A stretch of DNA of 64,000 bases from Alkalibacillus almallahensis. GTDB taxonomy: Bacteria > Bacillota > Bacilli > Bacillales > Alkalibacillaceae. Made by a program: the position numbers and the translations under genes. Where the stretch lies: positions 1 through 64,000 of the forward strand of contig NZ_JAASRU010000001.1 of NCBI RefSeq assembly GCF_011761495.1, written 5' to 3'. Of this stretch, positions 47,505 to 49,738 are shown piece after piece; positions within the stretch are counted from its first letter, which is position 1; every line of letters starts with the position of its first letter. Under the pieces are notes generated by a model, which worked only from the letters and a program-made list of their open reading frames with translations, made no database searches and was not told where the DNA came from.

Positions 47505-49133
47505 ATGATGGACGTACAATCAATAAAATTAGATCAATCCAAATTAATGCAAGATTATCGAGATAGAAAAGAATCAATTTATCAGCATTTTTACTATGAT
47601 CCGTTTCAAATTAATAACTTCAAACGTCGTCAAGACTATATAACAAAACAAAAGTATCAACGTGAGAATTTAGTCGAAATATTAAAGACGCAGAATCGAA
47701 AATGGGGGATGTCGGATCAAGTAGAAAAACAAATTGATACCTTATTAGATCCTAATGCTTCTGTTGTGATTGGTGGTCAACAAACAGGGTTGTTAACAGG
47801 TCCTTTATATACCATTCACAAGATTGTATCAATAATCATTCAAGCTAAAGAACAACAAGATTATTTAAAACAGCCTGTTATTCCTGTTTTTTGGATGGCT
47901 GGAGAAGACCATGATTTTTTAGAAGTCGATCATGTCTATACGCTTGATGAGAATGAGTTACATAAAACAAGAATTAATGACCAGACTCCGTTTGATGTGA
48001 AATTACCACTTTCAAAACGCGAATTACCAAAAGATACGCAAGCGTTTGTAGATCGTGTCTTTGCATCATTCCAAGAAACTGAGCATACGAAAGCAGTTTA
48101 TGATTTAGTGACGCAAGCTTTATTAGCAAGTGATACCTATGTAGACTTTTTTGCCTGTTTTATTCAACAGTTATTCCAAGAAGAAGGGCTAGTCTTGGTT
48201 GATGCAGCAGATGACGATTTGCGCCGAATGGAAAAAGATTATTTCATTAAAATTGTCGATCATCAACAAGAAATCGCAACTTCTGTTGTTAATCGATTGC
48301 AAGAATTGTCAAAAGATGATTATCACGTTTCTTTAGATGTAACGGCAACTGATGCACATTTATTCTATCATCATGAAGGTGAACGTTTATTGTTAGAAGT
48401 TGATGATTCAGGGGATTTCGTGACGAAAGGTGGAGGAGCTCGTTTCACCAAAGAATCTCTAAAAGAAACGATTGAAGCGTCACCTGAGAAATTCAGCAAT
48501 AATGTGGTCACCCGACCTCTAATGCAAGAATGTGTATTTCCTGTGTTATCCTTTGTCGGTGGTCCGGGTGAAATTGCTTATTGGGCAGCTTTGAAAGATG
48601 CTTTTGTAGCTCTAGACTTGCAGTTGCCAATTGTAACGCCACGTTTATCTTTAACTTTAATGAAACGGAATCACCAAACATTGTTAAATGACTATCAAAT
48701 AAACGCGACGGATTTGATTAATTATGGAACTTACCAAGACAAGATGAATTGGTTAAAACGTCAAACTCAGTCGCCTATTGACGAAACAGTGAATGAAGTG
48801 AAGAAACAATTCACCCAGGATCATAAGCCACTACAAGATTTAGCGGCATCGATTAGCTCTGATTTACACGATCTAACTCAAACGAATCTGGATCAAATTC
48901 AAGAACAAATCAATTATATAGAAAACCGATTAATGCAGGCAGTAAAGGAAAAAAACCAAGTAACTGTTAATCATTTTGATACACTAGACTTGTTCTATAG
49001 ACCGGAGGGTGGTTTACAAGAGCGGATTTGGAATATCACTTATTGGTTGAATGAAATTGGGTTATCATTACCCCAAGAATTAACCAAGTTGCCAGCTCGT
49101 TGGGAACAAGATCACCAACTTGTTTATCTGTAA
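47505..49133 (+). CDS. bshC: Bacillithiol biosynthesis cysteine-adding enzyme BshC
   Basis: Last step of bacillithiol synthesis: adds Cys to GlcN-malate. The 542-aa protein has IGGQQTGLLTGPLYTIHKIVSII, FWMAGEDHDFLEVDHV, and a long helical region at about 420-480, as in the family. AAGGAAGG precedes the ATG (a second ATG follows). It stands directly upstream of mraZ, as in B. subtilis (yllA). Confidence 0.96.
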   Translation: MMDVQSIKLDQSKLMQDYRDRKESIYQHFYYDPFQINNFKRRQDYITKQKYQRENLVEILKTQNRKWGMSDQVEKQIDTLLDPNASVVIGGQQTGLLTGPLYTIHKIVSIIIQAKEQQDYLKQPVIPVFWMAGEDHDFLEVDHVYTLDENELHKTRINDQTPFDVKLPLSKRELPKDTQAFVDRVFASFQETEHTKAVYDLVTQALLASDTYVDFFACFIQQLFQEEGLVLVDAADDDLRRMEKDYFIKIVDHQQEIATSVVNRLQELSKDDYHVSLDVTATDAHLFYHHEGERLLLEVDDSGDFVTKGGGARFTKESLKETIEASPEKFSNNVVTRPLMQECVFPVLSFVGGPGEIAYWAALKDAFVALDLQLPIVTPRLSLTLMKRNHQTLLNDYQINATDLINYGTYQDKMNWLKRQTQSPIDETVNEVKKQFTQDHKPLQDLAASISSDLHDLTQTNLDQIQEQINYIENRLMQAVKEKNQVTVNHFDTLDLFYRPEGGLQERIWNITYWLNEIGLSLPQELTKLPARWEQDHQLVYL

Positions 49134-49169
49134 CCACTGAGTCACCACCCGCTACCACTTTTCTACCAC
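49134..49169 (-). promoter_or_regulatory. Reverse array of four GTGG boxes after bshC
   Basis: CCAC at 49134, 49145, 49155 and 49166, i.e. GTGG on the minus strand every 10-11 bases. Read on the minus strand the block GTGGTAGAAAAGTGG is close to GTGGTGAAAAGTGG in the forward array near mraZ. Confidence 0.5.
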
Positions 49170-49200
49170 ACTAAAAAAACCTCTATATAGCAAGGATTGA

Positions 49201-49234
49201 ACACGTATAGTTTAAACTATACGTGTATTTTTTT
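49201..49234. terminator. Perfect palindromic terminator between bshC and mraZ
   Basis: A 26-base perfect palindrome (49201-49226), ACACGTATAGTTT with its complement, followed by T7. Confidence 0.93.
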
Positions 49235-49253
49235 GATAAATTTTAAATACATG

Positions 49254-49297
49254 GTGGTGAAAAGTGGAGCGATGTGGTAAACTTGTTGAAAAGGTGG
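49254..49297 (+). promoter_or_regulatory. MraZ-type boxes: GTGG repeats at exact 10-bp period
   Basis: GTGG at 49254, 49264, 49274 and 49294 (the 49284 slot is degenerate), ending 10 bases before the mraZ start. MraZ proteins bind short direct repeats of this kind upstream of their own gene (TGGGN type in E. coli, AAAGTG type in mollicutes). Confidence 0.65.
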
Positions 49298-49306
49298 GCA
49301 AAGTCT

Positions 49307-49738
49307 ATGTTCATGGGAGAATATCAACACAATATAGACGCAAAAGGACGTATGATTGTGCCGTCCAAGTTTCGTGAAGGACTTGGTCAAACTTTCGTCG
49401 TCACGCGCGGATTAGACAAGTGTTTATTTGCATACCCTATGGACGAGTGGAAGCAATTAGAAGAGAAATTGAAGCAGCTTCCATTGACGAAGAAAGATGC
49501 CCGAGCATTCACGCGTTTCTTCTTTTCAGGCGCAGTGGAATGTGAAATTGATAAGCAAGGAAGAATTAACATCCCTTCATCACTTCGGTCGTATGCCAAT
49601 TTGGACAAGGAATGTACTGTTATTGGTGTTTCAAACCGAGTTGAATTATGGGCGAAAGAATTTTGGGATGAATACGTAGAAGGCTCTGAGGATTCCTTTA
49701 GCGAAATTGCAGAGAATCTACTTGATTTTGATATTTAA
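49307..49738 (+). CDS. mraZ: Transcriptional regulator MraZ
   Basis: AbrB-like ring-forming DNA-binding protein that controls the division and cell-wall cluster. It is 143 aa from [22 protein letters not shown], equal to the B. subtilis length. The second half repeats the fold ([19 protein letters not shown]). AAAGGTGGG lies before the ATG at 49307; the open frame to 49274 is rejected as it would cover the binding boxes. First gene of mraZ-rsmH-ftsL-pbpB. Confidence 0.96.

Follow-up and report, generated by a model that had tools for sequence, protein, structure and literature searches.

Opposed, helically phased arrays of MraZ-like boxes suggest operator looping upstream of mraZ in one large branch of the bacilli

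Introduction

Auxiliary operators in phase with a main operator are a known kind of regulatory element. AraC represents a DNA loop system of this type, the octamer of lambda CI bridges OL and OR, and together with the likewise octameric DeoR it exemplifies multi-site operators bridged by a higher repressor oligomer; both differ from the case described here in their longer loops, another protein fold and palindromic sites. For loops of the Lac repressor in living cells, fitted helical repeats were reported as 11.60, 11.08 and, in the absence of HU, 10.95 bp (PMC1762422), values that lie above 10.5 bp because of supercoiling.

MraZ is known to repress the operon that encodes it and to bind direct repeats. 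In E. coli, Mollicutes and Burkholderia its operator at the dcw promoter consists of GTG-type direct repeats over or near the mraZ promoter, which are bound by MraZ and are described as a single array (PMC8475190, PMC7761207). An octameric toroid is described for MraZ relatives (PMC7761207), and the PDB entries 9r4j and 9sz7 are, by their titles, cryo-EM structures of MraZ with promoter DNA and, for M. genitalium MraZ, with a 4-box promoter. In the literature searched, mainly open-access journal papers, we found neither a reverse MraZ array nor looping by MraZ, nor a phased auxiliary operator for this protein.

Here, we describe a locus in which a comparable operator of direct repeats is accompanied by a second, inverted array located 75–262 bp upstream, in contrast to the one array described for the dcw operators (PMC8475190, PMC7761207). 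As in LacI loops, the distant second site shows a helical phase near 11 bp, but the LacI phase was obtained with engineered spacings (PMC1762422), whereas here it emerges from natural differences among species, and the protein involved would be a ring built of AbrB-like domains.

Materials and methods

The window is the whole analysed stretch of 64,000 nucleotides of Alkalibacillus almallahensis (NZ_JAASRU010000001.1, positions 1 to 64,000). For the comparison, regions of 330 bp upstream of mraZ were searched, so that more distant arrays are missed, and a reverse array was called where at least two CCAC boxes follow each other in steps of 10–11 bp. Duplicates of the same upstream region were dropped from the first survey (4/186), the further batch (5/57) and the class sample (5/68); for the enlarged survey, two loci were omitted as repeats of genomes G000 and G015 and then 12 duplicates of 302 were removed.

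The array distance d was measured from where the last box of the 10-bp reverse pair starts to where the first forward box starts. One value of d was used per cluster of alignable spacers. For the out-of-sample fit, 64 old clusters were used (the original 66 merged to 64 when the new loci joined), and new loci clustering with old ones (at least 20/41) were left out as test points.

Results

Two opposed arrays flank the terminator of the upstream gene

The features of the locus are listed in Table 1; the upstream gene is taken here to be bshC, the name given to it in the first-pass annotation. Both box arrays that this annotation had reported were recovered from the positions of the GTGG and CCAC starts. 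The forward GTGG boxes start at 49254, 49264 and 49274 and thus follow the exact 10-bp period claimed for all four, but the fourth box at 49294 lies 20 bp further, i.e., one period is skipped. The steps between the four CCAC starts are 11, 10 and 11 bp, and the first CCAC directly follows the stop of bshC. The hairpin between the arrays had been assigned to mraZ; it follows bshC and is the terminator of that gene.

Table 1. Features of the bshC-mraZ region (positions of the window).
Feature	Position	Strand	Remark
bshC	47505..49133	+	gene upstream of the array; based on the open reading frame
Reverse MraZ-like box	49134..49137	-	abuts the bshC stop codon; the core pair follows after 11 bp
Reverse MraZ-like box, core pair member 1	49145..49148	-	10-bp pair present in 164/164 array-bearing loci
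Reverse MraZ-like box, core pair member 2	49155..49158	-	its start precedes that of the first forward box by 99 bp
Fourth reverse box	49166..49169	-	among the loci examined, shared solely with G005, the closest relative of this genome
Intrinsic terminator of bshC	49201..49235	+	hairpin 49201-49226 (11-pair stem) and T-run; within the proposed loop
Main MraZ operator	49254..49277	+	three GTGG boxes, exact 10-bp period
Probable extended -10, TGG-TAAACT	49275..49283	+	overlaps the third box; read by eye
Fourth forward GTGG	49294..49297	+	20 bp from the third box; overlaps the probable ribosome-binding site (by eye)
mraZ	49307..49738	+	143 aa; ATG at 49307; presumed repressor of its own operon

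The mraZ product is an MraZ with the double AbrB-like fold according to its predicted structure: the monomer model (pLDDT 85) matched five MraZ entries with Z scores of 17.5–19.8, the highest with 1n0e, while structural relatives other than MraZ remained below Z 6 and were set aside.

The forward array has the properties of a main operator, as three GTGG boxes at a 10-bp period precede mraZ in 336 of 340 regions. Among 180 loci, the T, A and T downstream of the third box are conserved in 171, 145 and 164, respectively. Since the likely extended -10 TAAACT follows the third box, a bound operator should block the promoter. The third box itself donates the TG of this likely extended -10, so that operator and promoter share bases. 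A simple promoter scan found no sigma-70 match on either strand of the locus and also missed the probable mraZ promoter. In L161 (Pseudogracilibacillus) and L324, extra GTGG boxes extend beyond the main operator toward the mraZ start; by the rule used, both are devoid of a reverse array.

The reverse array is conserved in five families

Absence of the reverse boxes from close relatives had been named beforehand as the result that would refute the idea of bridged arrays; the 10-bp CCAC pair was in fact present upstream of the mraZ operator in all 22 genomes of the window's family. The four reverse boxes of the first-pass annotation are, however, conserved to different degrees. The 10-bp core (49145/49155) is kept, whereas the outer box at 49134 has counterparts in 13 of the 22 family genomes, with boxes 0, 11 and 21 bp past the bshC stop, and the innermost one is restricted to the pair of genomes given in Table 1. 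Throughout the 164 arrays found in total, two boxes are the rule (149 loci), three occur in 13 and four in 2, and each array contains an exact 10-bp pair.

In the first survey, reverse arrays were found in 39 of 182 regions (0.24 in shuffled sequences, 1 on the same strand as the operator), in the enlarged survey in 123 of 288 (shuffles 0.55, same strand 2) and in the further batch in 41 of 52 (same strand 6). Altogether, 164 of 340 regions carry at least two CCAC boxes at 10–11 bp, compared to 0.38 in shuffles, a fraction that does not represent the rate for the order, because once the first survey was complete, the array-bearing families received denser sampling. Chains on the operator's own strand amount to 8/340, seven of which are the right arms of terminators in genus g136, the exception being L099. 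Chance arrays are ruled out by the shuffles and the same-strand counts. A search of the 22 family genomes for GTGGN6-7GTGGN6-7GTGG returned 46 rows. Nine of these lie away from mraZ, while the 37 at mraZ comprise 22 forward rows and 15 reverse rows, the latter contributed by 13 genomes.

Five families have the array (f1 22/22, f6 37/42, f13 94/127, f36 3/8 and f25 2/2), while it was found in 0/65 loci of the other families sampled from the order. The missing pairs in 33 f13, 5 f6 and 5 f36 loci show that the reverse array is not essential. Among named records, 6 of 74 carry it, all of them Oceanobacillus or Virgibacillus, and a search of the plasmid collection returned two Listeria records, one with an annotated mraZ. 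Upstream of the array, a bshC relative was found in 161 of the 164 loci.

The arrays share a consensus without preference for their own locus

In the 164 array-bearing loci, the spacers of the reverse array match operators at about 5.7 of 12 positions, versus 3.8 with shuffled letters. The match to the operator of the same locus (5.69/12) is no better than that to other loci (5.79; within-family permutation p 0.58). The two arrays had been described as near inverted copies of each other, but they have only the consensus in common. On the same grounds, we rejected the idea that the operator had recently been duplicated in inverted form or had undergone gene conversion. When a matrix built from operators was run over 182 loci, 36 reverse-strand and 3 same-strand hits scored at least 10, with 0 in shuffles; the window's own array, with an 11-bp step in its outermost pair, reached a score of only 4.0.

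A consensus that is common to the loci and shows no own-locus preference is what a shared DNA-binding protein predicts. Because its spacers fit the consensus and match their own operator no better than those of others, the reverse array looks like a second MraZ site rather than an RNA arm.

Helical phasing of the array distance

The distance d is 99 bp in the window, 97–99 bp across six genomes of its genus and 75–262 bp over all loci. Across 66 clusters, the period that fitted d best was 11.35 bp (R 0.45; p 0.0005 when compared with jittered distances). The phase of loci added later could be predicted from those of the first survey, with a mean cosine of 0.28 over 45 clusters (p 0.0004 against jittered and 0.004 against uniform distances). 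In addition, a phase prediction was fixed before more genomes of family f13 were fetched, and the 21 new f13 clusters followed it with a mean cosine of 0.62, which none of 20,000 null draws reached (p<0.0001); under stricter clustering, 14 clusters gave a cosine of 0.51 (p 0.0003 jitter, 0.003 uniform). A fit on f13 only gave cosines of 0.57 and, with the stricter clustering, 0.44 on the new genomes (p 0.002 and 0.01).

With all data, the period was 11.34 bp (10.84–11.54) for 85 clusters and 11.20 bp (10.44–11.58) for 68 stricter clusters (p 0.0002–0.0006). At 11.3 bp, with both period and phase fitted to the data, 70 of the 85 clusters deviate from the common phase by no more than a quarter turn, about half being expected. 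The period is imprecise, as f13 alone peaks at 10.6–10.9 bp and the bootstrap spans 10.4–11.6 bp with all data and up to 9.6–13.5 bp in earlier sets. The array distance should therefore be quoted with a period of 10.4–11.6 bp, about 11.2–11.3 bp being best.

Controls for shared ancestry

Unclustered loci without an array look periodic in the distance from the bshC stop to the operator (111 loci, R 0.34 at 11.7 bp; 68 distinct values, R 0.15), i.e., shared descent alone can mimic a period, which is why one value per cluster was used. After clustering, the array-less loci were periodic neither in this distance (p 0.27–0.80; 0.10–0.42 when scanning 10.4–11.7 bp only) nor in that from the T-run to the operator (p 0.55–0.65; 0.23–0.30 when scanning 10.4–11.7 bp only). 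In array-bearing loci, the bshC-stop distance was not clearly periodic (p 0.07–0.38), while the T-run distance was (p 0.001–0.03). The T-run lies inside the proposed loop, and its periodicity could also stem from hidden common descent.

In 80 sister pairs from a bshC tree, the 33 changes of d of at least 4 bp favour multiples of a full 11.2-bp turn (mean cosine 0.28, p 0.004): 19 fall at 8–14 or 19–26 bp and none at 4–7 or 15–18 bp, with 14 larger ones excluded and with bins that were chosen after viewing the list and are 15 bp wide on phase versus 8 bp off phase. Compared with four control distances, these bins gave one-sided Fisher p values of 0.003, 0.02, 0.16 and 0.37, and the sister pairs are consequently no more than suggestive of whole-turn changes. 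In 8 of the 19 on-phase pairs, the bshC-operator distance shifted by the same amount as d, to within 6 bp; in 1 pair it did not change, and in the remaining 10 the stretches on either side of the array were both altered. Sliding of the boxes was rejected as cause of the period, as it fits 1 of these pairs while a change of the spacer fits 8, the 10 others being mixed.

Discussion

As known for auxiliary looping operators, the locus has a conserved, distant second site with the same recognition sequence and in helical phase, the latter with the stated caveats on period and ancestry. We consider it reasonably probable that the reverse array is an auxiliary, inverted operator, which MraZ would bridge to the mraZ promoter, thereby looping out the bshC terminator. 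This reading builds on computed properties, namely the presence of both arrays, their MraZ-box consensus, their opposed orientation and their phased distance. A ring-shaped MraZ with its many DNA-binding surfaces would simultaneously bind the main GTGG operator, which covers the mraZ promoter, and grip the inverted array 75–262 bp upstream. The DNA in between, including the terminator, would thereby form a loop, and mraZ and the cell-division operon would be under tighter autorepression. Either one ring on both arrays or two rings back to back could provide the geometry, and both fit. The first-pass annotation had already suggested a loop bridged by the MraZ ring, and the distance phased across lineages supports it indirectly; from the sequences we infer that MraZ binds the reverse array, that the loop forms and that transcription is lowered.

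It is difficult to account for a phase near 11 bp unless both arrays are contacted simultaneously, and their conserved opposition points to a fixed geometry. The phase found here also falls within the range of the Lac loop repeats (10.95–11.60 bp). Going beyond the single locus, we lean, with slightly more reserve, towards the view that MraZ, a division regulator widespread in bacteria, represses by loop formation between two opposed operator arrays in one large branch of the bacilli, and that selection on loop length left, across species, a record of helical phase with an in vivo repeat near 11 bp.

The strongest of the other explanations, which we nonetheless regard as unlikely, is that the reverse array serves as a lone MraZ roadblock halting RNA polymerase that leaks from bshC into mraZ, with no loop involved. 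Consistent with this option, 116 of 161 loci have the array starting at most 16 bp past the bshC stop, and in the window it stands ahead of the terminator. However, a roadblock could work at any helical phase relative to the operator, which leaves the observed phasing unexplained, and a fixed orientation would not be expected either. In 23 of the 161 loci the array starts more than 60 bp past bshC, which speaks against a roadblock. With another 22 loci in which it starts at 17–60 bp, the array is not merely a bshC tail.

A further option, less probable again, is that the periodicity is an artefact of shared descent or of the gain and loss of boxes in 10-bp steps, and that the array is a conserved MraZ site of some other use. 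The periodic T-run distance of the same loci, the apparent period of unclustered array-less distances and the imprecision of the period would all agree with this, as would the sister pairs in which both stretches changed and in which box shifts are possible. Against it stand the use of one value per spacer cluster, the out-of-sample tests and the clustered controls, and on-phase sister pairs changed as a spacer change would in eight cases and as sliding in one.

Very improbable, in our view, is that the reverse array is the MraZ-repressed operator of an antisense promoter into bshC: its orientation and consensus are those of the mraZ operator relative to its own promoter, but the 149 two-box arrays are devoid of the third box, which carries the -10 in the operator, the TA found after the operator's third box is absent from all 15 arrays that have three or four boxes, no promoter-like site was detected on either strand by the scan that also misses the probable mraZ promoter, and a phase to the operator would not be expected. 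Equally remote is pairing of the arrays as RNA in a bshC read-through transcript, with the hairpin controlling expression: the window's read-through RNA does fold well, with the arrays paired together (-55.6 kcal/mol, z -5.4), but same-locus spacers gave no sign of co-evolving pairs, no 11-bp phase is predicted, and no Rfam family was found at the gathering threshold.

If bridging by MraZ holds true, the opposed, phased array would offer a directly testable reason for the MraZ ring, as a ring can hold two DNA segments. Natural variation in spacing between genomes would then reveal DNA loops and the in vivo helical repeat without an experiment.

Several loci deserve mention in their own right. 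The two closest genomes share, outside the window, a run of three GTGG boxes with 11-bp steps that is located away from mraZ (G000:C1:270069-270094 and G005:C3:64084-64109). L206, L263, L337, L340 and L344 feature a lone CCAC with C-rich flanks near the expected place, which are perhaps decayed reverse arrays. Among 63 further loci of the class (62 from other orders and 1 from the window's order), two showed a reverse pair, L394 and L397. The pair of L394 lies, by eye, inside the upstream coding region and was rejected. That of L397, from family f59 of another order, has the MraZ-box consensus, is located 163 bp before the operator and is possibly real, perhaps as an independent gain. In genus g136 of family f13 (L214, L308, L310, L312, L313, L314 and L315), the reverse pair doubles as the left arm of an intrinsic terminator, in which a short loop joins the CCAC boxes to complementary GTGG boxes and a T-run follows, so that operator and terminator are fused.
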